NCBI RefSeq assembly: GCF_000373245.1
Contig: NZ_KB890743.1
Coordinates: 1,126 to 65,125 of the forward strand
Reading direction: 5' to 3'
From: Echinicola pacifica DSM 19836
GTDB taxonomy: Bacteria; Bacteroidota; Bacteroidia; Cytophagales; Cyclobacteriaceae
DNA length: 64,000 bases
A program made the translations under genes and the position numbers. Shown here piece by piece: positions 10,129 to 61,627 of this stretch. The notes under the pieces were generated by a model. It saw only the letters and a list, made by a program, of their open reading frames with translations, searched no databases and was not told the origin of the DNA. Every line of letters begins with the position of its first letter. Within the stretch, counting starts at the first letter, position 1.

Positions 10129-10154
10129 TCGGAAAGTTTTTTAATGTCCTTTCC

Positions 10155-10162: not shown

Positions 10163-10180
10163 ATCTCCTACTCTAAGGGC

Positions 10181-10596: not shown

Positions 10597-10646
10597 AAAA
10601 AAATAGCCTGCTTCGGCTACCTGAGAGGTGCTGAAGCAGGCTATTT
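10596..10646 (-). terminator. Intrinsic terminator of the GMC-MFS operon
   Basis: AAATAGCCTGCTTC (10601-10614) is a perfect 14-bp inverted repeat of GAAGCAGGCTATTT (10633-10646) with an 18-nt loop. On the minus strand it runs into a T tract (complement of 10596-10603), 22 bp after the MFS stop codon. Confidence 0.9.
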
Positions 10647-10667
10647 ACTTGCCTTAATCAAAACTGA

Positions 10668-28500: not shown

Positions 28501-28648
28501 ACGGATTCAGGGACTCCTTAATATGGTCAAATGGTACGATTGCAATGATAAGTCCTACCCAGAGGTATTGGACATGATCGAAAAATCAGTAAATGAGCTT
28601 GACCTAATTGTTCATAAAATCACACAAAAAGCTGAAATTATAAAATAG
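25568..28648 (+). CDS. Multi-PAS/GAF sensor ending in a HisKA-like helix, no ATPase domain
   Basis: A 1026-residue soluble sensor. Successive PAS domains begin near 5 (IFDLNPFPMWIYDLETLNFLRVN), 305, 575 (FFENSPDFQCILNF), 700 and 830, with GAF-like regions around 140-290 and 430-560. The last 60 residues form the first part of a HisKA dimerisation domain, with His971 in SWIQSHEFRAPIARI. The protein stops there: no N, G1 or G2 ATP-binding boxes follow, and the next gene starts 6 bp later with a receiver. Bacteroidota encode related proteins with this abrupt end. It may be phosphorylated in trans or act as a scaffold; this is inference. Confidence 0.85.
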   Translation: MAEASEVYKQIFDLNPFPMWIYDLETLNFLRVNQEAIHHYGYSEEEFLSMTIKDIRPSSEIEKLLRAVGKVRRREATDYDHLYVHRKKDGTIIHVKIKSRPVTFEGKDAELVTAIDLSDVYTSQQSALREKNYLEIIDRVNLIVNDLQRVYRPLEAFYAAAEFVGKKLNLHSISLNYPILFGDIKKWTSIEDGSPEEQNSSTTFETPLIGLLQDYKSPRCLFLEEIKEPILRNYLEQQQLSSIVIMPLDKDPERQGFLLVEVRDSSRQWNSQEIKLIVSIGGILENMLMQDVKRKKLLESEMQFKTMVQEGTDLIAIIDAQGEYKYVSPTSGNVLGIEPEQFIGRNAFSFIHPDDAEALLPYLESAAQQPRITLPKYRFVGNDGEYRWLHTILTNQLGTSPIHGIIANSWDITEQVEIAERQEILTEITRFLIEEKTVHVILQKVSHSLSKLNGIKNLSLWINAMDRSKLFHIASTEMSMATSLPYDHWSQVIAREVGVVQKPVRWTSQKLSQRFPEFNNKSGKSFENLLGFPLMVKDEVIGVILVTSQLSFDKLEKTARNLGIIADQISPYIRQKITKDTFRGFFENSPDFQCILNFDLGFIKANKAFSKNLQYSTEYLNQKSFLNLVPEDERERCKDFFSKILRNRSPSELECNILNNNGEKIPLLINSIIPPEQDVIFVMAKNINALKTIEIRLQLAFNQLKRAQKIAKLGYWHRKLDQDISTWSDSTYAIYGQDRLNFIPTIKNIINLFHPEDRHLFSPKTGDNIPSQMLKSYEHRILIPGGSIKWIRQEIRWLLNEKGLPYMIEGTIQDISDTKVHEQELLLSNERFNLAFKASNEMIWELDFTTETIIRGTAYLKKFPYETSEPFSSTNSWNQLIAKEDQKRIWESLQKVLSTPEENYWKDEYKIILDDEDIAYVVDRCYIIKDEDGKPLKAVGSVLDVTESRKYLEKIKTHNKQLKEISWIQSHEFRAPIARIQGLLNMVKWYDCNDKSYPEVLDMIEKSVNELDLIVHKITQKAEIIK

Positions 28649-42557: not shown

Positions 42558-44372
42558 TTATTTCATCAGTTCTATAAGCTTATGAAATACCTCGGTGTTC
42601 TCATATATTCCAGTGAAGAGATTGGCATGGGGACCATAAGCAAAAATGGGTACCATAATGCCGGTGTGATCTTCGGTGTCAAAATTCAATTCTACTTCAT
42701 TTCGGGAGGTATTGCCTTGGGGAAGGGTAATCCCTCCTGTTTCATGATCGGCGGTGATCAGGACCAAAGTCCCTGGATGCTCATCGGCATACCGGAGCAC
42801 CACCCCTATGGCTTCATCAAAGTCTATTCCCTCCTCCACCACTGTGGAAGCGCTATTCCAATGTCCGCCAGTATCGATCATCGCTCCCTCCACCATCAAA
42901 AAGAAAGGCTGATCTTTTTGACTAAAGAATGCTAGGGCGCTGGTGGTAGCTCTAGCCAGGAAACCTTCTCTACCTTTCTCTACCGTGGGTAAGCCTTGAT
43001 TGCTAGCGAAATACCCCACGCGCTCATCGCGGGAAATGGCCAGGGCGTCTAGGCTACTAGCAAAGTGAAAGCCAGCCTGCTCTAGTGGTTTGATATAATC
43101 ATTATCAAGGGTAAGAAAATCATTTTTTCCAGCTCCAATAATAAGATCCAAAACACTTTTACTCAAATCGTCGGCTATCGGCAGGATCATATCCCGATCC
43201 TGTCGGTGGGCATAGAAAGAAGCTGGCGAAGCTCCAGTCATATGGTCTGTGGTGACTATTCCCGACCTATACCCAAAGTCCACGATGCGCTCAGGCAGGT
43301 TCATTAGGGCTTTGCCATCCGGAGAAAAACCTATGGCTCTATTATTTGCCTTCGTCCCAGTGGCTAGCGCGGTGGCTCCCGCAGCAGAATCGGTGGTAAA
43401 ATCATCCGCCGACTGTGTCTTGAGCAGCCCTATATGCTTTAGCTGAGAGAGGTTTAGCTGACCTCCATGGCCATAGAGAGCGGCGGAGATTTGGGCGAGG
43501 CCATTGCCATCCCCAATCATGAGGATCACCTGCCTGATCGGTTCAGGTTTCCCATCTTCCATAAAATCAGGGGTATATATCTCATGGGACCTCTTACCTC
43601 TGACCACATTTTGGGGGAGGCTTTTCAGGTATTGACTGGCCTCATAAGGGCTGTCTGTATTGATATAATTTATCTTCAAATCATAAAAAGCCTTCCAGGC
43701 GGTTTTGCTATCTGGGGCTCCCCAGAAGCGCAGCGGACGATCATAAGCATGCACCATATCTCTGATTTCTTCAATGCGCAGCTGCTCTTCTTCCACTATT
43801 TTTCCCTTGCCATTCCAGACGGATACCCTCTTATAAGGAAGGCTGACCATGGCGATTTTGTCCCAAGGCAGGGTATCATCTAAGTCCAGCTGCTGATAAT
43901 CAAACCATATATAGGCAGGATAGCTGACATAGTCCTCTACCGCAGGTCGGCTACCTGAGACGACCACCCTCACCCCCTGACTGGGGTCTGTGGAAAGAAT
44001 ATCTGAATAATTGGCGAGGGACTTCTGAAGGACCTCCATACTGGCATAGGCTTCGGTCTTGATATCTACCAATAATTGAAAATCCAAGGCTCCGATTCCC
44101 ATAACCTGGGCTTTGCGGATGGGGTCGAGATATAAGGATTCGATAGTCCATTCTTCCTTAATAGTCTCCGGTTCATGCGCCACCATCAGCTTGCCATTTC
44201 GCAGGATCACATCGACCTCTATGCTGTGAGCACCACTTGCCAATGCCGTCCAGAAAGGAGCTTTCTGAAGGTAATCATTATGCGAATGCAGGCGATAATC
44301 AAATTGGCCCTGACCAAATAAATGGAAAGAACACAATAGAAAAGAAAGGATTAAATTAATTTTTAAATTCAT
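42558..44372 (-). CDS. Secreted phosphodiesterase-like / alkaline phosphatase fusion
   Basis: A 604-residue exported protein (signal to FGQ21). Residues ~24-255 are a PI-PLC/GDPD-like barrel: H29-S-H31-N-D (first His motif), IE52-V-D54 and VAH66E, in the positions of the family's catalytic and metal residues. Residues ~278-604 are a PhoA-like alkaline phosphatase: MIGD288G, nucleophile Ser329 in TDSAAGATALATG, TTDHMTGASPASFYAH, MVEGAMIDTGGHW, TADHETGG and a final metal His. Known Bacteroidota homologues share this two-domain layout. It could first split a phosphodiester, then release phosphate. Location between two SusCD pairs suggests it feeds them or uses their ligand. Confidence 0.9.
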   Translation of the reverse strand: MNLKINLILSFLLCSFHLFGQGQFDYRLHSHNDYLQKAPFWTALASGAHSIEVDVILRNGKLMVAHEPETIKEEWTIESLYLDPIRKAQVMGIGALDFQLLVDIKTEAYASMEVLQKSLANYSDILSTDPSQGVRVVVSGSRPAVEDYVSYPAYIWFDYQQLDLDDTLPWDKIAMVSLPYKRVSVWNGKGKIVEEEQLRIEEIRDMVHAYDRPLRFWGAPDSKTAWKAFYDLKINYINTDSPYEASQYLKSLPQNVVRGKRSHEIYTPDFMEDGKPEPIRQVILMIGDGNGLAQISAALYGHGGQLNLSQLKHIGLLKTQSADDFTTDSAAGATALATGTKANNRAIGFSPDGKALMNLPERIVDFGYRSGIVTTDHMTGASPASFYAHRQDRDMILPIADDLSKSVLDLIIGAGKNDFLTLDNDYIKPLEQAGFHFASSLDALAISRDERVGYFASNQGLPTVEKGREGFLARATTSALAFFSQKDQPFFLMVEGAMIDTGGHWNSASTVVEEGIDFDEAIGVVLRYADEHPGTLVLITADHETGGITLPQGNTSRNEVELNFDTEDHTGIMVPIFAYGPHANLFTGIYENTEVFHKLIELMK

Positions 44373-44800: not shown

Positions 44801-46390
44801 TTACCATCCCTTGTTTTGAGCTATTCCAGAGGAATTGACCACCTGATTTGGGATAGGCCATACTCCCATGGTAGCAGGATCAAAATCCCTGGCAGGCCAG
44901 ATTATGCTGACATTGAAAGGAGAGTCAGGATTGGAGCGATCGGTATGGATACGGCCATAAAGAGGCTGGGCGTAAGCTTCCTCCGCATCTCCCCATCTAA
45001 CGAGGTCAAAGTGTCTGTTGGCAAATTCTCCCGCAAGCTCCACCCGGCGCTCGTGTTTCAGGTCATCCATAGTCGCATTGGACACTGGTGGTAGGCCAGC
45101 ACGGTCACGCACCCTATTGATCGGTTCATCGCCATTCAGTCCCTGCATAATGAGTGCTTCGGACTTCATCAGTAAGACCTCCGCATAGCGCATCAAGGGT
45201 ACATTATAAATTGTCCCCGGGTTATTCCCGTTCGAATTGACATAGGTACCTATAGCATCTTCGAATTGGTACTCATACATATATTTATTGAACTGCAATC
45301 CCGACAGGGAGTTTTCGGACTGATACCTTCTATCTTCTCCAAAAAACTTAAATTCATCTCCAAATTTAAGTAGGGTAACTGAGCGACGGATATCCTCTTC
45401 TTCATATTCCTCATAGAGGCCATTGGTAGGCATATAGTAGCCCCAGCCATTGTACTTACCCCAGCCCTTATTTTCAAGGGCTACCCCTGGCAATTTGCTT
45501 CCGTCATTTACTCCGGAAACCACGGACCAGATATATTCAGGGCCCCAGTTATTGCGGTGACTGTGAAGCAAGCGAAAATCCAATTCCGGCTGATCTGTAT
45601 CATATAGGCTTCTTCCTGAGCCAGAGTTGGTCACGGCATCCGCGTAGGTGACCACGTCTGCATATTTGGAAGGGTCATATTCGGCCCAGTACAGAAAGGT
45701 TTTGGCCATATAGGCAAGAGCGGCATCCTTATGAGCCCGCCCCAAATCATCAGAGGAGTACTCTGTAAAAAGTGGAAGAAGCTCATAAGCCTTCTGAAGA
45801 TCTTCGATAATCTGGGCGTAATTTTCGGAAACGCTAGAAGGTCGGCTATAGCTCCCCGCATCGTCAAACATATTGTCTTCTGTCACGATGGGCACACCAC
45901 CACTGACATCATCACCATACGTATGGGCGATCCAGAAGTAATGAAAGGCCCTCATAAAATAGGCTTCGCCGAGGATCCTATTTTTCAAGGTAGCACTGAT
46001 TTCCATATCGGGAACGTTGAGCAGGATATCATTGGCGCGGCGGATGATTTTATAACTTTGAGGATACATCCAATACGTATATCCCTCATCACCGGTCATA
46101 TTGAAGTTTTTGATATTATCGGCAGTGGAATTTATCCTCCCCGTCACCATATCATCAGAGGCATTGATAAACCAGAAGAAGCCTCGGGAGAACATGTCTT
46201 CATCTTTCATATAGAAATAAAGGCTATTTGCTGCTTCTATGGCATCTTGCTCCGTCTGGAAGAAGTTTTCGTACGAAGTACTCCCTAGAGGATCCAAATT
46301 GGTAAAATCATCGGAGCAACTGCTGAGGGTACCCAAGCTGAGCACCATCGCCGTGGATAGTTTATAGAGTATATTTTTCATTTTGATCAT
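44801..46390 (-). CDS. SusD/RagB-family nutrient-binding lipoprotein (SusD2)
   Basis: A 529-residue lipoprotein (lipobox LSSC, about residue 25; a second ATG three codons in, at 46381, is equally likely). SusD features: FTNLDPLGSTSYENFFQTEQDAIEAANSLY at the N-terminus, helical pairs (RILGEAYFMRAFHYFWIAHTYGDDV) and the C-terminal LKHERRVELAGEFANRHFDLVRWGDAEEAY ... IWPIPNQVV. It follows susC2 by 12 bp. Together they should import one large ligand, probably under control of the adjacent propeller regulator. Confidence 0.93.
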   Translation of the reverse strand: MIKMKNILYKLSTAMVLSLGTLSSCSDDFTNLDPLGSTSYENFFQTEQDAIEAANSLYFYMKDEDMFSRGFFWFINASDDMVTGRINSTADNIKNFNMTGDEGYTYWMYPQSYKIIRRANDILLNVPDMEISATLKNRILGEAYFMRAFHYFWIAHTYGDDVSGGVPIVTEDNMFDDAGSYSRPSSVSENYAQIIEDLQKAYELLPLFTEYSSDDLGRAHKDAALAYMAKTFLYWAEYDPSKYADVVTYADAVTNSGSGRSLYDTDQPELDFRLLHSHRNNWGPEYIWSVVSGVNDGSKLPGVALENKGWGKYNGWGYYMPTNGLYEEYEEEDIRRSVTLLKFGDEFKFFGEDRRYQSENSLSGLQFNKYMYEYQFEDAIGTYVNSNGNNPGTIYNVPLMRYAEVLLMKSEALIMQGLNGDEPINRVRDRAGLPPVSNATMDDLKHERRVELAGEFANRHFDLVRWGDAEEAYAQPLYGRIHTDRSNPDSPFNVSIIWPARDFDPATMGVWPIPNQVVNSSGIAQNKGW

Positions 46391-46402: not shown

Positions 46403-49400
46403 TTACAGAGAAAGAGACAGCCCGGCAGTAAAAGTCTGAGGAAGTGGGTATCTACCCACATCCAGGCCCTTGCCGCCTACTTCCGGATCTATGCCGCTGT
46501 AATTGGTGATGGTAAAGAGGTTTTCGGTGGAGAAATAAACCCTCAAACTGCTGTCTTTGGCAAGTCCTTGCAATAAGGTCTCTGAGAAGGTGTATCCTAT
46601 GGTGAGGTTTTTCATCCGGAGATAAGAGGCATCTTCCAAGTACCAGCTGGAGCTAGTACCGAAATTCAAATTGTCATCCTTAGCGGATATTCTAGGGATA
46701 TCGGTATTGGTATGCTCAGGAGTCCAAGCATCCAGCACGCGGTTATCCAGATTATATCCCGACTGAGAAGCATTCAGAGCAGTGAATTTATAGCCATTAA
46801 AGACCTTCACTCCTGACACCCCTTGAAGGATCATGGAAGCATCAAATCCTTTGAAGTCAAAGGTGAAATTGAAGCCATAAGTGAAGTCGGGTAAGTAGCT
46901 ATCCATGAAGATACGGTCTTCATCCGAGATCCGTCCGTCTCCATTGACATCCTGAAACTTGAAGTCACCAGGCTGAGCATTAGGCTGAATCAATTGACCA
47001 TCCTGCGTATGGGAATCCACTTCCTCCTGAGATTGGAAAATACCAAGGTAAGGAACCAGATAAGTAGCATATAGAGGCTGTCCCACCATTGAGCGGTATG
47101 GAGCCAGGGTACTTCTGACATTATCGGTATGAGAGATGAAATCTACATTACTCTTATTATACCCGTCCAGATTGACCAGTTCGTTATGCAGCATGCTGAA
47201 ATTACCTCGGGCACCAAATCTCAATTCCCCGAAATTATTGAAGTATCCGGCTGAGAATTCGAACCCTCTGTTTCTCACTTCACCCCCATTTACGTCAGCA
47301 GCAGAGGTACCTTGGTGCAGGTCTTCCAAGCCAGGGAGGATCATCCCTTTGGTAGTTTTGATATAATAATCCATGGTCAGGCTCAGTTTATCATCAAGGA
47401 ATGAGGCATCCAAACCGAAGTTTGTTGATTCTGAAGTCTCCCATTTCAAGGCAGGGTTAGACTGCTGACCCGCATATACGGCCTTATAGTCCAGGGTGGC
47501 GCCCTCACCGAGCACCACTGTCTGAGTACCTAATGGCACATCAAAAGAGTAATAGCCTACCGAATTAATATTCCCTATCTGGCCCCAAGAGGCCCTCACC
47601 TTCAGACTATTGATCAGTTTACTTTGGAAAAAGCTCTCATTCGAGATATTCCAAGCCCCAGACACGGAAGGAAAGTAGCTCGATTGGTTTTCTCTCGCTA
47701 GGCGAGAAGTCTCATCTCTACGTACACTGGCGGTAAGGAAATAGCGCTCGTCATAGTTATACATTGCCCGACCGATGGCCGAGGTCAGCGCATCCTCATA
47801 GACGCTCGTCTGAGGAGTCAGGAACTCTGAGGCATTTCCCATATACTGATTGAATGGTTCCTCGGAGCTGAAGCCTCTACCCTCCTGGGAATAATAATCA
47901 TACTTCGTGTATTGGGAGGAGTAAACGGCGGTCACATTCAGGTCATGTTTACCAAAAATCCGCTGATAAGACACCTGGTTATCCCAAATCCATCGGTTGG
48001 TAGTGGAATGACTTTGGTACAGATAGTTTTGAAGATTGGTACGTCCAAGTTCTGGAATTCTAGGATTAAACTGCTTATTTTCAGTATTAATCACATTATA
48101 GCTAAAGGTACTTCTGAAGGACAACCCGGGGATAATCTCATAGTTGAGGTAAGTATTCGTATTGATATTCACCACGGGATTATTGACGGTAGGCCTCAGC
48201 AGGAGTCCCATTGGGTTATACACATCGCCATAGGTCCCGGCAAACTGGCTCAGGTCAGCAGGCACCACGCCGTGAAAGGCACCATTTTCATCATAAACAG
48301 GGGCAGCCGAAGGCATATAAAGGGCACTAATGATACTTCCGGAGTAAGAGCTGGAAGAGTTGGTACCGACAGCATTAGATTTTGACAGGTAGATATTTTC
48401 GCCAACAGTCACCTTATCAGAAAGATAAAAATCCGCCTTTAGCCGGAGGTTATATCGGGTAAAGCCAGTTCCCTGAAGCAGGCCATCCTTATCGAGGTAG
48501 CCAAAAGAAGCCATATAATTGGCATTTTCTCCCGCTCCACTCACATTAACATTGGCGCTATAGATGGCGGCATTTCTAAAGATCTCATCCATCCAATTGG
48601 TTCTATTTACCTGTCCCCAGGGGTTGAGATCGGCATTATGAGCGGCCTGTCTATCTACACCTGCATTATCTGCGGCGAGGTTATACACATTTGCTTGCTG
48701 CTGGGCGGTCAGCGGAGTGGGCAGATTCGTCGCACGCTGCACGCCGGAATACAAGTCAAAGGTCACTTTAGGCTTGCCAAAAGCACCATCTTTGGTTTTG
48801 ATAACAATCACCCCGGAGGCGGCTTGAGCACCATAAATGGCGGCTGCGGCGGCATCTTTCAGGATGGATACTGATTCGATATCATTTGGGTTGATGGAAG
48901 GTCCATAATAAGGTACCCCATCCACCACGGTCAGGGGTCTTTCATCTGCCAGAGAGCCATATCCCCGAATGACCACCAGGCCTTCCTGGGAAGGATCGCC
49001 ACCTTGCTGCATCACCGTGACGCCAGGTACATTGCCTTGAAGGAAATCATTCAGGTTGGCCACAGGACGGGAAGAAATCTGATCTACACCAGTCACAGAA
49101 GATACAGAGGAGGTCAGGTTTTCGCGCTTGGAGGTACCATAACCAATCATCACCACCTCATCGAGGTCATTCAGCGATTCCTCCAATAAAATCGTCAGCT
49201 CTGCTCCTCCCCCATAAGGTATAGTCTGAGAGTCCATTCCTATAAAAGAAACCGTAAGGCTGCCGGTATTAGCCTCGACCTTTATAGAGAATTTACCGTG
49301 CACATCCGTGGTGGTACCTTGATTAGGTTTGCCATTTGGAATGATCGTGGCACCAGGAACGGGATTCATATCCGATTTGCTGAGTACAAGTCCTCGCACA

Positions 49401-49471
49401 GTAGTCTGGGCATTTGCCTGGACCATTAGGAAGAAACTCAGCACCATTAAAATGTAAAAACTTTTTTTCAT
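46403..49471 (-). CDS. SusC/RagA-family TonB-dependent transporter (SusC2)
   Basis: A 1022-residue outer-membrane importer. Signal peptide to NAQ22, CarboxypepD_reg-like domain (~24-105, VRGLVLSKSDMNPVPGATIIPN), plug with VVMIGYGTSKRENLTSSV and the SusC motif SILKDAAAAAIYGAQAASGVIVIKTKDG (~205-232), then the barrel, ending TFTAGLSLSL. It differs clearly from SusC1 in sequence, so the two are not a recent duplication. A -7 promoter element lies 29 bp upstream of the start, and the propeller regulator gene lies just beyond. Confidence 0.94.
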   Translation of the reverse strand: MKKSFYILMVLSFFLMVQANAQTTVRGLVLSKSDMNPVPGATIIPNGKPNQGTTTDVHGKFSIKVEANTGSLTVSFIGMDSQTIPYGGGAELTILLEESLNDLDEVVMIGYGTSKRENLTSSVSSVTGVDQISSRPVANLNDFLQGNVPGVTVMQQGGDPSQEGLVVIRGYGSLADERPLTVVDGVPYYGPSINPNDIESVSILKDAAAAAIYGAQAASGVIVIKTKDGAFGKPKVTFDLYSGVQRATNLPTPLTAQQQANVYNLAADNAGVDRQAAHNADLNPWGQVNRTNWMDEIFRNAAIYSANVNVSGAGENANYMASFGYLDKDGLLQGTGFTRYNLRLKADFYLSDKVTVGENIYLSKSNAVGTNSSSSYSGSIISALYMPSAAPVYDENGAFHGVVPADLSQFAGTYGDVYNPMGLLLRPTVNNPVVNINTNTYLNYEIIPGLSFRSTFSYNVINTENKQFNPRIPELGRTNLQNYLYQSHSTTNRWIWDNQVSYQRIFGKHDLNVTAVYSSQYTKYDYYSQEGRGFSSEEPFNQYMGNASEFLTPQTSVYEDALTSAIGRAMYNYDERYFLTASVRRDETSRLARENQSSYFPSVSGAWNISNESFFQSKLINSLKVRASWGQIGNINSVGYYSFDVPLGTQTVVLGEGATLDYKAVYAGQQSNPALKWETSESTNFGLDASFLDDKLSLTMDYYIKTTKGMILPGLEDLHQGTSAADVNGGEVRNRGFEFSAGYFNNFGELRFGARGNFSMLHNELVNLDGYNKSNVDFISHTDNVRSTLAPYRSMVGQPLYATYLVPYLGIFQSQEEVDSHTQDGQLIQPNAQPGDFKFQDVNGDGRISDEDRIFMDSYLPDFTYGFNFTFDFKGFDASMILQGVSGVKVFNGYKFTALNASQSGYNLDNRVLDAWTPEHTNTDIPRISAKDDNLNFGTSSSWYLEDASYLRMKNLTIGYTFSETLLQGLAKDSSLRVYFSTENLFTITNYSGIDPEVGGKGLDVGRYPLPQTFTAGLSLSL

Positions 49472-49499: not shown

Positions 49500-49507
49500 C
49501 AAATCTA
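49500..49507 (-). promoter_or_regulatory. -7 promoter element of susC2-susD2
   Basis: TAGATTTG on the minus strand fits TAnnTTTG and lies 29 bp upstream of the susC2 ATG. TTTTG at 49523-49527 could serve as a -33 element, though the 15-bp gap is shorter than usual. Confidence 0.55.
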
Positions 49508-49664
49508 CCCCAATCCCTGCCCCAAAAGGTGGAATATTATTTCAAACTAGTGGACAATATTGACCTATAAACCTCCATTTTTAACGTATTTGGGGTGTTT
49601 ATTCATCAGAAACAATGTCGTAATATTCCGGTAGTATTATGATAATTTTGACCCCAATAAAACC

Positions 49665-52600
49665 TCACAATTCTACTGGGTGCTGAAAGTGCTTAGGAGA
49701 TTGTCCAAGGTGCTTTTTGAAGAGTTTGCTGAAGTATTTCGGGTCATTATAGCCACAGGCAAAACTCACTTCGGAAATATTCATCTTTTGCTGAAGGAGA
49801 AGTTTCTGGGCTTTTTCGAGTCTCAGACTTACGAGCAGGTCTGAAGGGGAGGTACCCAGGACCTCTTTGAATCCACGGTAACATTTAATTTTACTGATGC
49901 CCATCTGCTCACTAAGTTGCTCCACCTTAAAATTACCATCCGCCAGATGGTCTCTGATGATTTGCAAGCCTTCCTTGACCAGTTTCTCATTGGGGCTGGC
50001 ATAGGTGGAATCCTCTGTTGGCAGGAGGGAAAAGATATTTCGTTCTGCGTTTAGTCGTTTTATTTTATCGATTTGGGCACCGATTTTCTTCAGGATAAAT
50101 CGGCTGCTTGCGGGAAGCTGGATAAAATTCTCCACGCCCATATCGATAAGCTTCTCCTGGAAGCCGACTTCGACTGTATCATAAACATAAAAAACAGGGA
50201 TCTCCACCTTTTCCTTGGCTTTACGGCTGACAGCTTCCACTAGCTCGAGGATGGTCCCGGTCATTTTCTCATTATAAATAATCAAAGCATCAATAGAGGC
50301 ATTTTTGATGGCTGAGATCACCATCTGCACTTCCTCTTCCACGATGATCTCAAACTCCTCATTATGGATAATATTCACCAGGCTATCGGACTCATATTTC
50401 TTTCCCAGCAGCACTATATGATGCTTATCGGGAGCCAGCTGCTCTTCGAGGTTGAGGTGCTTCCAATGCCTCACGTGCAAGGGCTGGTCTGGGGAGGCGA
50501 GTTCCTGGTAAGGGATGGTCAGCTGGACCATAAGTAATTGTCCTCCTTCTTGGCGATAGGTAATCTTGCCGGACAGGCTCTCAAGAAGTGAAAAAGCAGA
50601 TTTCAAATAAGGGCTGTACCGAAGTATTTCCTCTAGATTATGGACGAGTAGGGAGCTATTGATGGTGAGATCGACCTGCAGGGCAGCGTTGGCGCTATGT
50701 GCTTTCACTTCAAATGCCGCTCCGGACTCCAGGTATTTCAACACCTCCCGGAGCAGATATTGCCAAAAAAGTTTGAATTTAAGAACATCTAGCTCCACCC
50801 ATCCACCGGTGAGCTGGTATTCTTCGCGGAAACTGATATGATATTTGGTCAGTGGATTTTGGAAGTTCTGGAAGATGCTTTCCATGAGTTCGGGGAGCAG
50901 GGTCAGCGAGGGACCGCCAGATTCCAGCTGCTCCATTTTCTGTATTTTCTCCCAATCTCTCACCTGGGTAAGCATTTGCTCCACTAAGCCCATGACCGTC
51001 TCCTTGCCAGCTTTGCTATGGGCACGCAGCAGCTCCAGGTTCTCCTTCAGATCGGTAAGGGGCATTTTAAACTGCCCAAGGACGTAAGCTTTAAACTTGT
51101 CCATTTCGAAATCAGCGTCCTGATGCCTTTGGTGCAGGTCCAGAAGGGCTGATTTCTGTTCGTTAATTTCCTTATTCTTAGCATCCAGCCGATCATTGAT
51201 CTGCTGAAGTTCTGCTTTTTGCTGTTGGATCAAGGCGGTACGTTCCTCAATTTTCCGTTGAAGGATTTTCTGTTCATTTTTGGCCGCCTTGGTTCTCCAA
51301 AGGATCAGGGCGGCACTGGCCAGCATCATGAGTGCGACCCATAGGAAGGGCGAATGCCATATCGGCCGAGGGATCAGAATGCTGTGTCGAAGGTAGTTTT
51401 CCGGGCGACTCTCAAGGGAATTTCTTACTTCTAGGGTATAGCTTCCTGGAGAAAGCCCCTCGAAGATAATCCTGCCGTCGCTAGGGACTTCTCTCCATTG
51501 TTCTGAGGCGGGCAGCAGCCTAAACTGCACTTGATTTTGGTCGGACCGACTAAATTGCACGGCTCTAACGCCCAGCTCGATTTCCCCCGCATTAAGGCCT
51601 GAGAGCTGCTCCTCCGTATCGGGTAGGAGTAAACTTAGCCGAGGCAGTTCGTCCTCCAACTCGATTCGCTGAGGATGAAAATAGTTGAGCCCATTTACCC
51701 CACCGAAGAACATCATACCGAGTTCACTTCGGAAGAAGGCACCTTCAGAAAACTCTGCCCCTTGCCAGCCCTCATCAGGTGCGAGGTTATGCAGGGTATA
51801 ATCTTTCAGATTAATGCGGGAAATCCCATTGGTGGTAGATATCCACATATGCTGTTCATCCGGCAAGAGGCCATACACCAGCTGGCTACGCAGGCCTTCT
51901 TCTTGCCTAATATGGGTGATCATCCCCTGCATGGGGTGATACACAGACACTCCTGCCAGGGTGGCAATCCATATATTACCGGTCTGCTCGTCCTCTTGGA
52001 GCGCGAATACGCTATTGTTTAACAGTCCATTGGAATCATCCAAAAACGTAAGTTTCCCAGCCTCATACATGGCCACTCCATTTCTTTCGGTGGCCACAAA
52101 TAAGCCGCTACGAGTGGATAAAACCTGTCGAATATGAAGGCCCTGAAATAAGCGCTGATCTTCGAAGGCTTCAAAACTTTCGCTCAGGTAGCTATACTTA
52201 GACAAGCCTCCCCAGCAGGCCACCCAGAGGCAGTTATTAGCCTTATCTTCGAAGAAATCATAATTTCTATCCGCCACAAAATGCGGGGTATCCTTTTGGG
52301 TAAAGAACGTCTTCTTCCCCTGAGCACTAATCCTCAGCACCCCGGCATAAGTACCTACCCATACGGTACCTGCACGATCGGTATATAAGCTGCGGATCCT
52401 ATTCCAGTCAGAGGAAGAGTCATCCTGAAGAAGGTCAAACCGCTTAAATAATGGGGAATCCGCCTTGCGCAGGAACAAGCCACTATTATAAAAGCCCAGC
52501 CACAGCTGCCCTGATTGGTCTTGGGTAAGTGCGCGGAGGGTCTCATTGGGAAGTTGAGGCTGTTTTTCCGGATGCGGATAGACCGAGTAAACGGCCGATG

Positions 52601-53366
52601 AATTGCGATGGGCCATGCTAATGCCACCATCCTTCGTCCCTAGCCATATATTGCCATATACATCTTCATTTATGGTATATATTTCATTACTGCGAATGCT
52701 ATAAGCGTCTGTAGCATCATGATGATAGCTATAAAATTCGTTTCCTGAATCGGGGGAAAGCACATAGACGCCATGCCTGAGCGTAGCGTACCATATTCTG
52801 CCCGACCGATCGGTATGTTGGTCGAGGATATCCACCCCGGGCACCTGCCGCTCCAATAGGGCATTTAAGCCCTCGGATTCGGGTTCGGTAAAAGAGCAGG
52901 TTTTGCAATAGGCCCATTTATTACCCTCAAAAGACAGGATAGAGTCTCTTACCTGCGCCATTGCCTGGCCATATTGAGACAGACCTAAGCGCTGTATATT
53001 GGAGCCCAGCGAGAAATTGGTAAAGCCTTTTGCTCCCTTGAGGCTGAGGGTTTCTTCGCTGGAGCGCACCCACATCTGCCCTTCCTGATCCAGGAGGATA
53101 TCGGTAATAAAATTCCCCGGCAGGGAACTGCTATCACCGGGCACATTCCTAAAGACGGTAAATCGCTTGCCGTCAAAATAATTGAGTCCATCCCAGGTGG
53201 CTATCCATAATCCTCCATCCTGGGCATTGACGATTTTATTGACCGAATTATTAGAAAGCCCATCTTCGACGAGGTAGGTTTTGAACTTTAGGTTTTGTGC
53301 CCAAAGGTCCGAAGCCAAACCAGCAAGCACGATGCATAGGCCATAAAATAAATATCTATTTTTCAT
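49665..53366 (-). CDS. Hybrid two-component-like propeller regulator with degenerate kinase and receiver
   Basis: Start set at 53366 (MKNRYLFYGLCIVLAG, a good signal peptide), not at an earlier in-frame ATG. The 1233 residues show: propeller repeats (~25-570, GGLWIATWDGLNYFDG), Y_Y_Y (~595-665), TM (~672-690), coiled coil (~693-755), HisKA-like (~756-815), HATPase-like (~820-952), receiver-like (~981-1100) and AraC HTH (~1125-1230). The phosphoacceptor block reads LGQFKMPLT: the SHEFRTPLT histidine is Gly764. N, G1 and G2 boxes are absent. In the receiver the phospho-Asp position is Asn1032 (IIYNEKM), and the acidic pair and the Lys are missing. It sits next to susC2 and probably controls it without phosphotransfer. 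Confidence 0.88.
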   Translation of the reverse strand: MKNRYLFYGLCIVLAGLASDLWAQNLKFKTYLVEDGLSNNSVNKIVNAQDGGLWIATWDGLNYFDGKRFTVFRNVPGDSSSLPGNFITDILLDQEGQMWVRSSEETLSLKGAKGFTNFSLGSNIQRLGLSQYGQAMAQVRDSILSFEGNKWAYCKTCSFTEPESEGLNALLERQVPGVDILDQHTDRSGRIWYATLRHGVYVLSPDSGNEFYSYHHDATDAYSIRSNEIYTINEDVYGNIWLGTKDGGISMAHRNSSAVYSVYPHPEKQPQLPNETLRALTQDQSGQLWLGFYNSGLFLRKADSPLFKRFDLLQDDSSSDWNRIRSLYTDRAGTVWVGTYAGVLRISAQGKKTFFTQKDTPHFVADRNYDFFEDKANNCLWVACWGGLSKYSYLSESFEAFEDQRLFQGLHIRQVLSTRSGLFVATERNGVAMYEAGKLTFLDDSNGLLNNSVFALQEDEQTGNIWIATLAGVSVYHPMQGMITHIRQEEGLRSQLVYGLLPDEQHMWISTTNGISRINLKDYTLHNLAPDEGWQGAEFSEGAFFRSELGMMFFGGVNGLNYFHPQRIELEDELPRLSLLLPDTEEQLSGLNAGEIELGVRAVQFSRSDQNQVQFRLLPASEQWREVPSDGRIIFEGLSPGSYTLEVRNSLESRPENYLRHSILIPRPIWHSPFLWVALMMLASAALILWRTKAAKNEQKILQRKIEERTALIQQQKAELQQINDRLDAKNKEINEQKSALLDLHQRHQDADFEMDKFKAYVLGQFKMPLTDLKENLELLRAHSKAGKETVMGLVEQMLTQVRDWEKIQKMEQLESGGPSLTLLPELMESIFQNFQNPLTKYHISFREEYQLTGGWVELDVLKFKLFWQYLLREVLKYLESGAAFEVKAHSANAALQVDLTINSSLLVHNLEEILRYSPYLKSAFSLLESLSGKITYRQEGGQLLMVQLTIPYQELASPDQPLHVRHWKHLNLEEQLAPDKHHIVLLGKKYESDSLVNIIHNEEFEIIVEEEVQMVISAIKNASIDALIIYNEKMTGTILELVEAVSRKAKEKVEIPVFYVYDTVEVGFQEKLIDMGVENFIQLPASSRFILKKIGAQIDKIKRLNAERNIFSLLPTEDSTYASPNEKLVKEGLQIIRDHLADGNFKVEQLSEQMGISKIKCYRGFKEVLGTSPSDLLVSLRLEKAQKLLLQQKMNISEVSFACGYNDPKYFSKLFKKHLGQSPKHFQHPVEL

Positions 53367-55620: not shown

Positions 55621-56088
55621 ATGGCAAAAAATCAAAACGCATTTATCAAGAAGCAAAAGGCTGAGCTAAAAAAACGTCGTAAAAAAGAAAAAATGGAAGA
55701 GCGACTACACCGTAAAGCTCAACCAAAAGATGGGAGTCTGGACAATATGACCGCTTATGTGGATGAATTCGGAAATATATCCGAAACCCCACCTGAGCCG
55801 CCAACAACCAAAGATAACGCACGCCCTAAAAACAGGTACCGTGGAGATTCTCGAAATGACTCCCGTGGCGGATCCAGAGAATCTCGTGGAGATTCTAGAG
55901 ATTCTAGAGAGCCTCGTGGAGACTCCAGAGACTCCAGAGACTCGAGGGAGCCTAGAGAACCTAGAGAGCCTCGTAGCGAATCCAGAGGCGAGTCTCGCGG
56001 TGAATCCAGAAATGATTCTCGTAGCGAATCTAAAGGCGAACCTAAAAGTGAGCCTCGCAACGAGTCTAAAGGCGAATCCGACAAATAA
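55621..56088 (+). CDS. Small basic protein with cold-shock-type N-terminus and SR/RE repeat tail
   Basis: A 155-residue protein. Residues 1-60 (MAKNQNAFIKKQKAELKKRR ... GSLDNMTAYVDEFGNISETPPEP) match the basic extension that precedes the cold-shock domain in Bacteroidota Csp-like proteins. The cold-shock domain itself is missing. From ~72 to 150 the chain is low complexity: repeats of R-[DE]-S and R-E-P (GDSRDSREPRGDSRDSRDSREP), rich in Arg, Ser, Glu, Asp and surely disordered. The DNA underneath is made of 9- and 6-bp near-repeats, so repeat number may vary between strains. RNA binding or RNP assembly is a guess from composition. A strong terminator follows. Confidence 0.75.
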   Translation: MAKNQNAFIKKQKAELKKRRKKEKMEERLHRKAQPKDGSLDNMTAYVDEFGNISETPPEPPTTKDNARPKNRYRGDSRNDSRGGSRESRGDSRDSREPRGDSRDSRDSREPREPREPRSESRGESRGESRNDSRSESKGEPKSEPRNESKGESDK

Positions 56089-56657: not shown

Positions 56658-59585
56658 TCAGGCTTTTTTTAGTCCTACAGAAATAAGCTGCTGCACTTCC
56701 ACGGAATAGACGCCAAACTCCTGCACCACCTTACCCATAATTCTATAAAAACCTCCAGCATGAATAGGATACCTCTTCAATACTGGCGGAAAGTGCACTG
56801 TATCCAACCAATCCCCTTCCTCATCCAGAAAAGTCCCAAAAGCCATCGTATCACCCCTGATGGTACGCACCGGCTTAGTCGTCACCAACTGTCCCAATAA
56901 GCACACCTGCTTACCAATCAGAGAGGCTAACTGCCGCACGTAAGTAAGCCCTGAGCGGTCATCATCCACCAGATCAAAAGGCCTCCCCAATGGGAATCCT
57001 ATCAATTCTATCTCATCCATCGCGTCCTCCAGAGGCCTTTTAGGAAAGTCAGGCAACTGAAATTCGGGCATTTCCTCCTGAAACATGCTGTGCATCACCG
57101 GGACGGTGTCCATTCTCTTTCTGCTAAAATTGGCATGCCAGAGCAGCTCCTTTTTCTCCATACCCGTAAAGCGCATCGCGCCCACACGGATCAGTAGATT
57201 GAGCTGCTCCGCATCAATATGAGTTCGCTCAATAAAATCAGTCAGGTCATGATAGCCCCCATTCTTAGCCCTCTCCCCCAGGACCCTGTCCATGGTCTTA
57301 CGCTCCAAGTTCTGCACATGCACGAATCCTGTAATCACCTCATCTCCTAAAATGGAGGTCAGGTAATGTCCCTGATTCACACAAGGTGGAAATACCTTTG
57401 CCCCAGACTTCTTGAGCTCATGAAAATAAAAGGAAGTCTTATAGAAGCCTCCAAAATTATTAATCACCGCCACCATAAATTCCATGGGGTAATAGGTCTT
57501 CAGGTAGAGGCTTTGGTAGCTCTCCACGGCAAAGGAGGCAGAGTGGGCCTTGGAGAAGGAATAGCCCCCAAAGGACTCAATCTGCCGCCACACTTCCCTG
57601 GACACCTCTTCTGGATAGCCCAAGCCCTTGCAGTTGGCAAAGAACTTCTCTTCTATCAACTTAAAGCGATTATGCGAACGGTATTTTCCCGACATCGCCC
57701 GGCGGAGGATATCCGCTTCTCCCATATCTAGACCTGCAAAATGGTGGGCTACTTTGATCACATCTTCCTGATACACCATCACTCCGTAAGTTTCTTCCAG
57801 CAGCTCCTTCATTTTGGGATGCAGGTAGGTGATTTTATGAGGGTGATGAAACCGCTCTATATACTGCTTCATCATCCCCGACTGAGCCACCCCCGGACGG
57901 ATGATCGAGCTGGCCGCCACCAAGGTCAGGTAATCATCACATCGCAGCTTGGTAAGCAGCTGCCGCATGGCGGGGCTCTCGATATAAAAACAGCCTATGG
58001 TATCCGCTCTTCGGATCTGATCGGCCACCTTTGGGTCTGTAAAAAAACGCTCCACCTGACGGATATCCACCTCCTCCCCCTTGTTCTGCTTCACCAAGCC
58101 AATCGCATCCTTGATATGGGCCAAGCCTCGCTGACTGAGGATATCGAGCTTAAAGAGCCCAATCTTCTCGGCCAAAAACATATCTACCTGCGCCGTATTG
58201 AAGCCCTTCGGGGGACGCTCCAAGGCGGTATAAGAATGAATGGGCTTTTCGCTGATCAGCATCCCTCCGGGATGAATACTTTGGTAATTGGGAAAGTCCT
58301 CCATCAAGGCCCCATAGCGGAGAATGGCTCGCTGAATACCATCTTCGGGAGGATACTGCTCTTTGCGTCGAAAGACCAGATTATCAATCTCAGGCTTAGG
58401 AAGTCCAAACACCTTACCCAGCTCCCTGATAATCGCTCGTCCTTGGAAAGTAGAATACATCCCCAGCAAGGCCACATGCTCCCGCCCATATCGCTTAAAG
58501 ATATAGTCAATCACCTCATCCCGGTCTTGCCAGCTAAAGTCCATATCAAAATCCGGTGGAGAAGTCCGATGAGGGTTTAGGAATCTTTCGAAGTATAAAT
58601 CCAGCTTAATGGGATCCACGTCCGTGATTTTCAGACAAAATGCCACGATGGAATTGGCTCCGGAGCCTCTTCCTACATAGAAGAATCCTCGATTTTGCGC
58701 GTAGCGCACCACATCCAGCACAATGAGAAAATAAGCACTGAAATTCAGCTCATGGATAATACGCAACTCCTTCATCACCCGCTCTCTCGCCAGCCGATGC
58801 CCTGCGCCATACCGCTCCTCCAGGCCCTCCATCGCCAGCTTCTCGAGCAAGATACGGTCGTCCTCCTTGGAGGAGGTGAAGAATTTCTTATTCTTATCCG
58901 TATGCAAGGCCATGGATATTTCGCAGCTATTGATCACTTGAAGTGTATTTTCAAGAATAAAACCGTACTCCGAAAAACCATTCCAAAGCTCCAGTTTATC
59001 CTTAAAAAACTCGTTTTCACCCGCCATATCACCAGCATTCAGCTTGGAGAGAAGGGTGTTCAGGTCAATTGCCCGGAGGATCTTATGCAGGTTATAGTAG
59101 GTTTTATTTTGATAAGTTACAGGCTGTAGGACCACCCATTTGCGAGGGTGTTTCTCGGGAGATTGACCATACAGCTTCACCAACTCCTCCTGACGAACAC
59201 CAATAAGCTCATACGCTTCCAGCTGCTCCGGCTTATACCTACCCAGCGGATAGATCACCCAAACCTGCTCCAGCAAGGGCCTAGAGGGAAAATCCTTCTT
59301 ATCTATCAGGTGCTGCGAAATAAACTGATTGATATGCATAAGCCCCTGATCAGTTCTCGCCAATAGTATATACATCAACTGCTGGTCATTTCTGATTTCG
59401 GCTCCCAGTATAGGCTTGATCCCTGCCTGTCTGCAAAAATCCACAAAATCCCAGGCGTCCGCCGTGCTATTGACATTCGTCAAAGCCAGGGCCTTTACCC
59501 TCTTGGCAGCGGCAGTATCCACCAGCTCCTGAGTGCCAAAAGTCCCATAGCGATAACTAAAATACGTCTTACAATTCAGGTACAT
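56658..59585 (-). CDS. DnaE-like DNA polymerase III alpha subunit (error-prone, DnaE2-like)
   Basis: Start set at ATG 59583-59585 after an excellent AGGAGGTGAAAAG ribosome-binding site; the frame's upstream 39 codons overlap dinB and are not homologous. The 975-residue C-family polymerase has the catalytic triad Asp345, Asp347 (PDFDMDF) and Asp481 (FKLDIL), and SFSKAHSASFA. The N-terminal PHP domain is degenerate: the usual HSxYS metal motif reads KTYFSYRYG and ALTD reads ALTN, so proofreading-type PHP activity is unlikely. A C-terminal OB fold is present. It is shorter than replicative DnaE (~1160) and lies 4 bp after dinB, so it probably serves translesion synthesis. Confidence 0.88.
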   Translation of the reverse strand: MYLNCKTYFSYRYGTFGTQELVDTAAAKRVKALALTNVNSTADAWDFVDFCRQAGIKPILGAEIRNDQQLMYILLARTDQGLMHINQFISQHLIDKKDFPSRPLLEQVWVIYPLGRYKPEQLEAYELIGVRQEELVKLYGQSPEKHPRKWVVLQPVTYQNKTYYNLHKILRAIDLNTLLSKLNAGDMAGENEFFKDKLELWNGFSEYGFILENTLQVINSCEISMALHTDKNKKFFTSSKEDDRILLEKLAMEGLEERYGAGHRLARERVMKELRIIHELNFSAYFLIVLDVVRYAQNRGFFYVGRGSGANSIVAFCLKITDVDPIKLDLYFERFLNPHRTSPPDFDMDFSWQDRDEVIDYIFKRYGREHVALLGMYSTFQGRAIIRELGKVFGLPKPEIDNLVFRRKEQYPPEDGIQRAILRYGALMEDFPNYQSIHPGGMLISEKPIHSYTALERPPKGFNTAQVDMFLAEKIGLFKLDILSQRGLAHIKDAIGLVKQNKGEEVDIRQVERFFTDPKVADQIRRADTIGCFYIESPAMRQLLTKLRCDDYLTLVAASSIIRPGVAQSGMMKQYIERFHHPHKITYLHPKMKELLEETYGVMVYQEDVIKVAHHFAGLDMGEADILRRAMSGKYRSHNRFKLIEEKFFANCKGLGYPEEVSREVWRQIESFGGYSFSKAHSASFAVESYQSLYLKTYYPMEFMVAVINNFGGFYKTSFYFHELKKSGAKVFPPCVNQGHYLTSILGDEVITGFVHVQNLERKTMDRVLGERAKNGGYHDLTDFIERTHIDAEQLNLLIRVGAMRFTGMEKKELLWHANFSRKRMDTVPVMHSMFQEEMPEFQLPDFPKRPLEDAMDEIELIGFPLGRPFDLVDDDRSGLTYVRQLASLIGKQVCLLGQLVTTKPVRTIRGDTMAFGTFLDEEGDWLDTVHFPPVLKRYPIHAGGFYRIMGKVVQEFGVYSVEVQQLISVGLKKA

Positions 59586-59589
59586 CTTT

Positions 59590-60744
59590 TCACCTCCTAG
59601 CTTTGTGCATCCCCACTGCGCGGCTGACCGCCTGGACTCCATACTTAGCCCTAATCGCATCCATTGCTTGATAAAGGCGGACATTTTCCTCTGTATCCTC
59701 AAAGAGATTGATCTGCTGATAGCCCCCCACGAGATGGCTGACCTTCACCCCGATCAGGCGCAGCAGCATCCGACGGTCATAGAGCTTGGCAAATAGCTCT
59801 TTGGCCTTCGCCAATAACACATCATCATTGGCCGTATAAGGCAGCACACACTGCTTACTGACCGTATCAAAATTCGCATAACGAAGCTTGACGGTGATGC
59901 AGCCACAGAGACGCTGCTGCTTACGCAAGGCAAAAGCCACCCCCTCAGTAAGCCGCACCAGTTCTCCACTGAGAAACTGCATATCAATGGTATCATTACC
60001 AAACGTCTCTTCCTTGCCTATGCTCTTCTGCTCCGAATAGGGAATCACAGGGGACTCGTCCCTCCCATTGGCTTTACGGGAAAGGCCGATTCCGCTCTTG
60101 CCGAGCAGATTATGCATCATGGGCTCGGGGATTTCCGACAGCAGCTTAATCGTCTCCACCCCCATCCGCCGCAGCAAGGAGGAGGTCTTCAGCCCTATTC
60201 CAGGCATACGCTCTATGGACAGAGGGGCCAGATAGCCCTTCTCGGCACCAAAAGGAATCTCCATCTGCCCATTGGGCTTGGCATCTTCCGTGGCCACCTT
60301 ACTTACTAGTTTATTGGAGGCAAGGGCATAGCTGATAGGCAATCCCGACTCCTTTATTATTCTCGTCTTTAGCTCTGCTGTAAACTTGCTACAGCCAAAA
60401 AAACGATCCATTCCCGTAAGGTCAAGGTAGAATTCGTCAATGGAAGCCTTCTCCACCACAGGCACTTGCTCACGGATAATATCCGTCACCACCCGACTGT
60501 GATAACTATAACTATCCATATCTCCCTGCAGGTATTCCGCCCCAGGGCATAACCTTCGCGCCAGCTTCATCGGCATGGCGCTGTGCACCCCAAACCGCCT
60601 CGCTTCATAACTGCAGGAGGCCACCACTCCCCGATCAGAATTGCCACCGATGATCACCGGCTTGCCTTCCAACGCAGAGTTCCCTAACCTCGCCACACTT
60701 ACAAAGAAGGTGTCCAGATCAAAATGCACCACATTCCTTTTCAT
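59590..60744 (-). CDS. dinB: Y-family DNA polymerase (DinB/ImuB-like)
   Basis: A 384-residue translesion polymerase. Catalytic residues are visible: Asp9 in HFDLDTFF, and Asp103-Glu104 in SIDEFYLDL, so it is catalytically competent, unlike classic ImuB. The palm, thumb (helix-hairpin-helix, IERMPGIGLKTSSLLRRMGV) and little finger are present. A beta-clamp motif QINLF occupies 344-348 and is followed by ~36 residues (VRLYQAMDAIRAKYG) typical of cassette-type DinB/ImuB. It is the first gene of a two-gene operon with the DnaE-like polymerase and is divergent from a LexA-like repressor 70 bp away, which likely represses it until DNA damage. Confidence 0.9.
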   Translation of the reverse strand: MKRNVVHFDLDTFFVSVARLGNSALEGKPVIIGGNSDRGVVASCSYEARRFGVHSAMPMKLARRLCPGAEYLQGDMDSYSYHSRVVTDIIREQVPVVEKASIDEFYLDLTGMDRFFGCSKFTAELKTRIIKESGLPISYALASNKLVSKVATEDAKPNGQMEIPFGAEKGYLAPLSIERMPGIGLKTSSLLRRMGVETIKLLSEIPEPMMHNLLGKSGIGLSRKANGRDESPVIPYSEQKSIGKEETFGNDTIDMQFLSGELVRLTEGVAFALRKQQRLCGCITVKLRYANFDTVSKQCVLPYTANDDVLLAKAKELFAKLYDRRMLLRLIGVKVSHLVGGYQQINLFEDTEENVRLYQAMDAIRAKYGVQAVSRAVGMHKARR

Positions 60745-60764
60745 TTGTCCGAACTATTTAGTAA

Positions 60765-60807
60765 TATTGGTAACAATTACAACATTATTGTGTTCGAAAT
60801 ATTACCA
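60765..60807. promoter_or_regulatory. Paired operator-like motifs between dinB and the LexA-like gene
   Basis: TATTGGTAA at 60765-60773 is inverted against TTACCAATA at 60802-60810. The right copy extends to AAATATTACCA (60797-60807), 11 bases of which recur upstream of the SRAP gene (62363-62373). The 70-bp gap must hold both divergent promoters, so the motifs can control both genes. Confidence 0.6.
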
Positions 60808-60814
60808 ATAAATT

Positions 60815-61627
60815 ATGAGCAATACAAGTTTTTTTTGGTCTTCCAATATTAAATTTCTTCGTAACAGAAAGAAAATCAGCCAGATGGCCTTAGCAGAAAA
60901 GTTGGACATATCGCGCCCAAAAGTAAACACTCATGAAAACGGTCATGTGAAGAATCCTCCTTTGGCAGATATGATTTTGTTTTCAGACTTCTTCAAAATG
61001 AGCATTGACACCCTGATAAAAGTGAATCTATCGAAGCTCTCCGAGCTAAAAATAAGGGACCTGGAAGCAGGAAATGATGTGTATCTAAAAGGCGGAAACA
61101 TACGGATCCTGGCCACTACCGTCAATGCGGACAATCAGGAAAACGTGGAACTGGTACCCATCAAAGCCAAAGCCGGATACCTTGCGGGATATAGCGACCC
61201 CGGATTCATCAGCAAGCTCCCCGTATTTAGCCTTCCTCAGCTGGACCCCAATCGCAAATACCGTATGTTCCCTACCGAAGGGGACAGCATGTTGCCCGTG
61301 CCTGAAGGTGCCCTGGTGATCGGGGAGTTTTTGCAAGACTGGAGTAGCCTGAAGAAACAAACACCCTGCGTGGTACTCACCCGGGACGAAGGCATCACCT
61401 TTAAGCTACTGACCAATAATAGCGCAGAGCGAAGTCTATTGCTCGAATCGCTCAACCCGCTGTACCAAGCCTATGAGGTGAGCATGATGGATATACTGGA
61501 AGTCTGGAAATTTCATAGTTATTTTACCGACAGCATCCCTGAGGCGATGAGCTCGCTAGAGCAAGTCGGAAAAGACGTGCGGGAGATCAAGGCGCAGCTG
61601 CAAAGCCTAAGGGCATTTGGCAATTAA
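60815..61627 (+). CDS. XRE-HTH / S24 peptidase repressor (LexA-like, self-cleaving)
   Basis: A 270-residue regulator with an XRE helix-turn-helix (~10-70, ISQMALAEKLDISRPKVNTHENG) and a LexA/CI-type S24 domain (~112-230). Self-cleavage parts are intact: Ala120-Gly121 in KAKAGYLAG, Ser158 in EGDSML and Lys197 in GITFKLL. About 40 residues follow as a helical tail. Bacteroidota generally lack classical LexA and use such XRE-S24 proteins instead. Divergence from dinB-dnaE and convergence with SRAP (stops overlap by 4 bp) make it the probable damage-responsive repressor. Whether RecA triggers it is not shown here. Confidence 0.88.
   Translation: MSNTSFFWSSNIKFLRNRKKISQMALAEKLDISRPKVNTHENGHVKNPPLADMILFSDFFKMSIDTLIKVNLSKLSELKIRDLEAGNDVYLKGGNIRILATTVNADNQENVELVPIKAKAGYLAGYSDPGFISKLPVFSLPQLDPNRKYRMFPTEGDSMLPVPEGALVIGEFLQDWSSLKKQTPCVVLTRDEGITFKLLTNNSAERSLLLESLNPLYQAYEVSMMDILEVWKFHSYFTDSIPEAMSSLEQVGKDVREIKAQLQSLRAFGN

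Follow-up and report, generated by a model that had tools for sequence, protein, structure and literature searches.

Hybrid two-component systems (HTCS) of Bacteroidota carry a periplasmic sensor, a histidine kinase, a receiver and an AraC-type DNA-binding domain in a single chain; their genes lie upstream of susCD pairs and their sites are direct repeats, with 21 bp the average spacing of 16 HTCS motifs of Bacteroides thetaiotaomicron (B. theta) (PMC3878776). A latch with the consensus S/CHIP-DK is reported to keep unphosphorylated HTCS off DNA (Gao, Wu and Stock, PMC11253607). The nearest published hint of a phosphorylation-independent HTCS would appear, from the accessible text of that report, to be B. 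theta BT4236, which has Gln in place of the phospho-His and an altered latch, CSIP-EK, and is suspected of acting independently of phosphorylation. Here we analyze a stretch of 64,000 nucleotides from Echinicola pacifica DSM 19836 (the window, by which we mean this whole stretch), in which the gene at 49665-53366 encodes an HTCS relative with the same domain order, placed upstream of a susCD pair and associated with candidate direct repeats 21 bp apart. Throughout the clade examined, the hallmarks of phosphotransfer and of ATP binding are gone together with the latch, and with them, as these residues predict, the phosphorelay; we refer to these proteins as pseudo-HTCS. The likely role of this HTCS descendant, in our view, is that of a one-component regulator, anchored in the membrane and free of phosphorelay, that serves a single target.

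By alignment, pseudo-HTCS is homologous to HTCS but fails the features of a phosphorelay: it lacks the phospho-His, the phospho-Asp, the receiver Lys, the second Asn of the N box, the G2 box, the ATP lid and the latch, and the window protein has also lost the G1 glycines. Relative to HTCS, it has about 35 more residues between the transmembrane helix and the dimerization and histidine phosphotransfer (DHp) domain, and its candidate operator adds a third repeat, 43 bp upstream. Likewise, pseudo-histidine kinases, DivL among them, have lost phosphotransfer residues and retained the domains. The same is described for bacterial pseudo-receivers (PMC12632262, in part); in contrast to both, pseudo-HTCS combines a dead kinase half and a dead receiver half in a single chain that also carries a DNA-binding domain, and it comes with a candidate target. 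Whereas the loss named for BT4236 in the accessible text is that of the His, pseudo-HTCS loses kinase, receiver and latch clade-wide. Transmembrane one-component logic is shared with SusR (PMC3878776, in part) and with kinase-less propeller-AraC regulators such as that at 22502-25378 of the window, but pseudo-HTCS still has its dead kinase and receiver, and these are constrained. The PusCD phosphate utilization systems resemble the locus in gene content, combining SusCD with phosphodiesterase and phosphomonoesterase genes; HTCS is a term absent from the main text of that paper (PMC8115612). Among open-access PMC papers, judged by titles and the starts of abstracts, we found none describing a clade with dead kinase, receiver and latch; no paper there joins hybrid two-component system, Bacteroides and pseudokinase, or pseudokinase, histidine kinase and pseudo-receiver. 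A 2025 review calls the switching mechanisms of bacterial pseudo-receivers still a mystery (PMC12632262, in the part available). Because kinase, receiver and latch are dead yet constrained here, and a single target promoter is predicted, that question becomes testable in one protein and at one promoter. Pseudo-HTCS would show that an HTCS can drop phosphorylation and keep its architecture, and it offers a candidate regulator for a putative organophosphate-uptake susCD locus.

Dead kinase and receiver domains in a constrained family

The open reading frame (ORF) is real and starts with ATG (an alternative TTG-started frame would reach 53444). Its parts are as follows, CA denoting the catalytic and ATP-binding domain:

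49665-53366, minus strand: pseudo-HTCS gene, 1,233 amino acids (propeller, Y_Y_Y, transmembrane helix, coiled coil, dead DHp and CA, dead receiver, AraC)
51627-53297, minus strand: periplasmic two-component-regulator propeller, about residues 24-580 (Reg_prop, E 6.2e-29)
51357-51599, minus strand: Y_Y_Y domain, about residues 590-670 (Pfam, near the cut-off)
51297-51353, minus strand: transmembrane helix, residues 672-690 (hydropathy scan)
51099-51284, minus strand: probable signalling coiled coil, residues 695-756 (from conservation and the distance between transmembrane helix and His position)
50901-51098, minus strand: pseudo-DHp, residues 757-822 (His position is Gly764, never His in 18 members)
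50499-50900, minus strand: pseudo-CA, residues 823-956 (GHKL-like in fold, with a gap in place of the lid and G2 box)
50043-50441, minus strand: pseudo-receiver, residues 976-1108 (the phospho-Asp position is Asn1032, the Lys position Leu1084)
49683-49991, minus strand: AraC-type DNA-binding domain, residues 1126-1228 (HTH_18, E 3.4e-21)

The domain order of an HTCS, which an earlier note made from the letters alone had read here, was borne out: Pfam finds Reg_prop and HTH_18, and the dead domains are homologous by profile-profile comparison. The propeller matches the solved HTCS sensor domains 4a2l and 3v9f. Y_Y_Y scored 25.7 bits in one Pfam run (cut-off 26.6) and 31.0 bits in another, and was detected in 6/6 pseudo-HTCS members (E<=10). 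At the same threshold HisKA, HATPase_c and Response_reg gave no match in the window protein or in any of the six members tested, whereas all three were found in 12/12 HTCS paralogues of the same genome. Compared with these paralogues profile to profile, the whole cytosolic part matched with 98.6% probability (E 1.3e-15, 388 columns), the CA domain alone with 96.3% (E 1.7e-9), and the receiver alone, which has no Pfam receiver match, with 90.8% (E 1.2e-6). The predicted structure of the kinase part has a fold near RetS and DivL, among many other kinases; these structural matches come from a second look with VIA-align in which the receiver is barely covered, and the proposed pseudo-receiver fold is assigned from the alignments.

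Residue pairs were extracted by script from the profile alignment and counted over 18 full-length members and 12 live paralogues. As the note had it, Gly764 aligns with the phospho-His column, and it does so also when the protein is aligned to WalK/YycG; the column holds G, N, D, S, R, K or A in the members (H 0/18) and His in 12/12 paralogues. The N, G1 and G2 boxes of the ATPase are gone from the window protein, again as proposed. The N-box Asn pair is Tyr870/Glu874; the first Asn is retained in 2/18, and the second, present in 12/12 paralogues, is replaced by E, D, G or A in every member. The two G1 glycines are Ser904 and Leu906, with Ser at the first in 18/18, and the ATP lid and G2 box form a 17-column gap. 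In the receiver, the acidic pair is Gly988/Lys989 (first position acidic in 0/18, second in 3/18), the Lys is Leu1084 (L or M in the column, Lys in 0/18), and the phospho-Asp is Asn1032 (N in 16, Q in 2); the note had likewise read Asn1032 and the absence of the acidic pair and the Lys. Tyr1031 was considered for the phospho-Asp position on a weak single-sequence alignment (E 0.73) and rejected in favor of the profile alignment; neither residue is Asp, and Asp is found in 0/18 at 1031 as at 1032. The phospho-Asp column is acidic in none of the 18; near it, Asp1026 is retained in 14/18 and an acidic residue at 1033 in 10/18. Close homologues thus share the losses of the DHp His, second N-box Asn, phospho-Asp and Lys in 18/18, a check that the note had suggested. 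The latch is missing as well: S/C is found in 0, His in 1, Asp in 0 and Lys in 0 of the 18 members, compared with Ser in 10, His in 11, Asp in 11 and Lys in 12 of the 12 paralogues.

The distance from the transmembrane helix to the His position is 67-81 residues in pseudo-HTCS and 35-49 in live HTCS; the extra length looks like about five heptads of coiled coil. Ten of the 17 residues invariant in 18/18 between residue 690 and the AraC domain fall in this presumed coiled coil.

Homologue searches used the middle part of the protein. Pseudo-HTCS was found in 14/390 genomes of the family, in 7/84 genera (E<=1e-15); a phylum sample of 395 genomes gave four strong matches besides the window's own, and an order sample of 390 genomes one further match outside the family, strong matches (E<1e-80) being clearly separate from weak ones (E>1e-12) in both. 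This makes 19 genes, of which 18 are complete, these coming from three bacterial families; genome G758, with an interrupted frame, was excluded from the residue, dN/dS (nonsynonymous to synonymous substitution rates) and tree counts and included in those of synteny and operator. In a tree of 43 propeller proteins the 18 members form one clade with 100/100 support, on a long stem, some other rows also being long-branched. For the closest pair, G388/G396, dN/dS was 0.094 in DHp, 0.104 in CA, 0.082 in the receiver, 0.115 in the propeller and 0.084 in AraC. The DHp, CA and receiver values were 0.107, 0.160 and 0.126 for G189/G211 and 0.069, 0.066 and 0.092 for G640/G591, and in one of these two pairs, both of higher dS, AraC reached only 0.019. 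These are three of six pairs computed, two of the three having dS of ~0.9-2.7 in the dead domains; G028/G142, G044/G152 and G000/G001 are not quoted because dS was saturated in most regions. Conservation is highest in the AraC domain (invariant columns among six proteins: AraC 42/106, receiver 19/136, DHp 4/64). To judge from these comparisons, pseudo-HTCS is an old and constrained family and not a product of decay; the dead domains are under purifying selection and therefore needed for something.

The gene cluster and candidate operator

Downstream of the regulator lie three genes:

46403-49471, minus strand: susC2, the probable target (TIGR04056, 838 bits)
44801-46390, minus strand: susD2 (SusD_RagB, E 3.9e-29)
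42558-44372, minus strand: GDPD-like and alkaline-phosphatase fusion, third gene of the locus (Alk_phosphatase, E 1.8e-54; GDPD_2, 29.4 bits with a cut-off of 27)

The order regulator, susC, susD-like gene and homologue of the fusion gene is kept in 13/19 loci, the window included, so that the susCD synteny on which the note had proposed a check extends to the phosphodiesterase/alkaline-phosphatase gene. All 13 of these cis loci have susCD with the phosphodiesterase/phosphatase homologue behind it (Pfam domains checked in the window and in locus L102). Three of them, in G758, G640 and G591, have a different type of susC (identity 31-32%, with SusC1 as best match) together with a susD-like gene with no match to the window's, which in G591, where Pfam was run, is SusD_RagB; G758 has one additional ORF ahead of the phosphatase gene. 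Where the regulator is unlinked, the susC-susD-phosphatase cluster lies on another contig in 5 of 6 genomes. In five of these six genomes (L046, L048, L064, L065, L066), the unlinked regulator stands beside another AraC-type regulator and adjoins a sugar-oxidoreductase/isomerase-like operon, whose domains were checked in L048 only.

SusD2 (E<=1e-100) is present in 13/14 genomes of the family with the regulator and in 13/376 without (Fisher p 2.2e-16, a test that ignores kinship). Among the latter 13, G149 ends in a contig break and has the phosphatase gene; the other 12 have no phosphatase gene in the 16-17 kb fetched. The three tested with Pfam, G126, G137 and G221, have FecR and an extracytoplasmic function (ECF) sigma factor upstream of susC; this arrangement, at L134, L138 and L140, amounts to a swap of regulatory systems around one transporter. 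In Echinicola G008 (L154, 7580-11511), the flanking 503-amino acid gene adjoins the phosphatase gene, with regulator, susC and susD absent between them; from this apparent empty site, regulator, susC and susD may come and go as a block.

The susC2 promoter contains a candidate operator of three direct repeats, TGAAAgAnnnGTCCaCCt, with spacings of 43 and 21 bp:

49591-49608, minus strand: repeat 1, followed by repeat 2 at 43 bp
49548-49565, minus strand: repeat 2, followed by repeat 3 at 21 bp
49527-49544, minus strand: repeat 3
49500-49507, minus strand: TAGATTTG, -7-like element of the promoter, 19 bp beyond repeat 3

Nine cis susC promoters, made non-redundant by dropping one member of every near-identical pair, served to train the motif. 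The motif reached 189.3 bits, compared with 124-142 for ten shuffles (single-base, and with 60 starts against 300 in the real run), and the 43/21 geometry came top of 442 spacings (455.5, runner-up 344.3). The motif scored 17.2-21.2 in 5/5 promoters of unlinked susC genes. In 12/12 control promoters of related susC genes, all from genomes in which the search did not detect the regulator, scores ranged from -2.9 to 6.6, and three of these controls belong to loci with ~80% identical SusD. These counts omit G152, in which no susC locus was found, and G149, whose contig ends inside susC. When each cluster was left out of training in turn, the tripartite element was recovered at its assigned place in 17/18 promoters. 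Behind repeat 3, at 19 bp, stands TAnnTTTG, which we take to be the consensus of the -7-like element, in 7/18 promoters, TAnnTTTA in 5/18 and another nnnnTTTG in 6/18.

At a score of at least 15 there is one match in the window (49527-49608), and there are matches in 11/13 cis loci (window included) and at 5/5 unlinked clusters; none was found in 538,170 positions around other regulators of the same genome, in 221,028 around the unlinked regulators themselves, or in 399,180 around the SusD clusters of regulator-less genomes. Around phosphatase genes elsewhere, two matches of at least 12 were found in 557,732 positions (L152, 21.1, A-rich and chance-like; L160, 13.4). A tandem pattern, written from the same sites as those it finds, occurs with at most one mismatch once per genome, at the susC promoter, in 5/5 genomes with an unlinked regulator; two mismatches add six more places, compared with three for a reversed control. 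At L100 (G758, 9062-10909) the regulator frame is interrupted, yet the susC promoter retains the operator.

The comparison of loci shows that the gene cluster and the tripartite candidate operator track the regulator. Because synteny is conserved and the operator accompanies the regulator also in genomes where the two are unlinked, susC2-susD2 is very probably its target; the control of this pair that the note had put forward is supported on both counts.

Proposed mechanism and its rivals

In the reading we prefer, the periplasmic propeller would sense a compound linked to organophosphate uptake, a cargo suggested by the phosphodiesterase/phosphatase neighbour and the likeness to PusCD loci. 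The signal would travel via the transmembrane helix and the lengthened dimeric coiled coil, with the dead DHp, CA and receiver domains as rigid spacers positioning two AraC heads on the repeats. Binding beside the -33 region of susC would then turn on susC2-susD2; the phosphodiesterase/phosphatase gene that follows would probably be turned on with them. Activation is favored because the distance to the promoter element is fixed. Lever-like action of the dead domains, which the note had proposed, is what we infer: purifying selection, a longer coiled coil and a missing latch are in keeping with it, as they are with a constitutive binder or a ligand-binding role.

Several observations weigh against the preferred reading. 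The DHp domain alone matched the paralogues weakly, with 28.8% probability (E 6e-4), on the right diagonal. A shifted acceptor, which the note had named as contrary evidence, was looked for in the 18 members: His745 is the only His of residues 696-830 present in at least half of them (16/18). It was rejected as the phospho-acceptor, as it lies 19 residues upstream of 764 in the coiled coil, is missing from 2/18 and could draw on no recognisable ATP site. The regulator lies away from the cluster in 6/19 genomes (G044, G041, G028, G142, G184, G152), and in G152, which is 88% complete, neither SusD2 nor a susC locus was found. The phosphatase-fusion gene occurs in 65/325 genomes of the family, mostly without the regulator, which was unseen within five ORFs of it in 14 loci; as an exclusive partner this gene was rejected. 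With their own cluster left out, the promoters of G189 and G211 scored a weak 3.1 and 3.6 (maximum of the 12 controls, -3.0), and the operator of G055 was found 22 bp off its assigned place, which had been chosen by the -7-like element.

The main rival is that the protein binds DNA constitutively and represses susC until a periplasmic ligand arrives. We give this derepression about one chance in five. It draws on the latch residues counted above, whose loss should favor constant DNA binding, and on the accessible text of one report, in which latch substitutions lead to phosphorylation-independent DNA binding and the non-consensus B. theta HTCS BT2391 represses its polysaccharide utilization locus (PMC11253607). 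However, repeat 3 ends 19 bp upstream of the -7-like element in the assigned register in 18/18 promoters (the register of G055 having been chosen by that element), a position that suits an activator touching the -33 region and not a roadblock at the start site, although a repressor over -33 is possible.

Less probable, but worth stating, is that the dead kinase and receiver now sense a ligand themselves. The lidless GHKL pocket, in which Ser904 and Lys865 are invariant in 18/18, or a cavity of the pseudo-receiver would bind a cytosolic metabolite, for instance phosphate or a phosphate ester, and one protein would compute 'substrate outside AND phosphate short inside' for one promoter.

Pho boxes are also direct repeats, and the locus is of a phosphorus-scavenging type; the operator might then belong to another factor, such as PhoB, its link to the regulator being a chance linkage inherited with the locus. 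Homology between the susC loci in cis and the unlinked ones means that part of a shared promoter could be inherited. We regard this as improbable: the operator is absent from the three susC promoters with ~80% identical SusD and from nine more, all in genomes in which no regulator was found; it precedes a different type of SusC in G758, G640 and G591; and, unlike the sites of a global regulon, the tandem is found once per genome (at most one mismatch, 5/5).

Slightly more doubtful still is that the protein acts in trans on live HTCS or kinases through mixed dimers, with gene control secondary. DivL and RetS are pseudokinases that act via mixed dimers, the predicted kinase part is near both in fold, though also near many other kinases, and the coiled coil is conserved; against this, conservation peaks in the DNA-binding domain, for which there is a separate candidate operator. 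A decaying pseudogene or annotation artefact, suggested by the lost catalytic residues and the interrupted frame of the G758 relative, is already contradicted by 18 uninterrupted homologues, dN/dS of ~0.1 in the dead domains, and a conserved operator and synteny, and we give it almost no weight.

Other regulators and genes in the window

The window also encodes, at 22502-25378 on the plus strand, a 958-amino acid propeller-Y_Y_Y-AraC regulator in which Pfam detects neither kinase nor receiver, upstream of a 1,026-amino acid ORF at 25568-28648; locus L006 (11908-14814) holds a 968-amino acid ORF with a Y_Y_Y match. Live, dead and kinase-less forms of one design may thus coexist in the same genome. 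Elsewhere in the window, a plus-strand ORF of 155 amino acids (55621-56088) has a long low-complexity tail rich in GDSR/SREPR, and at 56658-61627 DnaE-like and DinB/ImuB-like ORFs, so read from their sequences, lie beside a LexA/XRE-like ORF, in what is perhaps a mutagenesis cassette.

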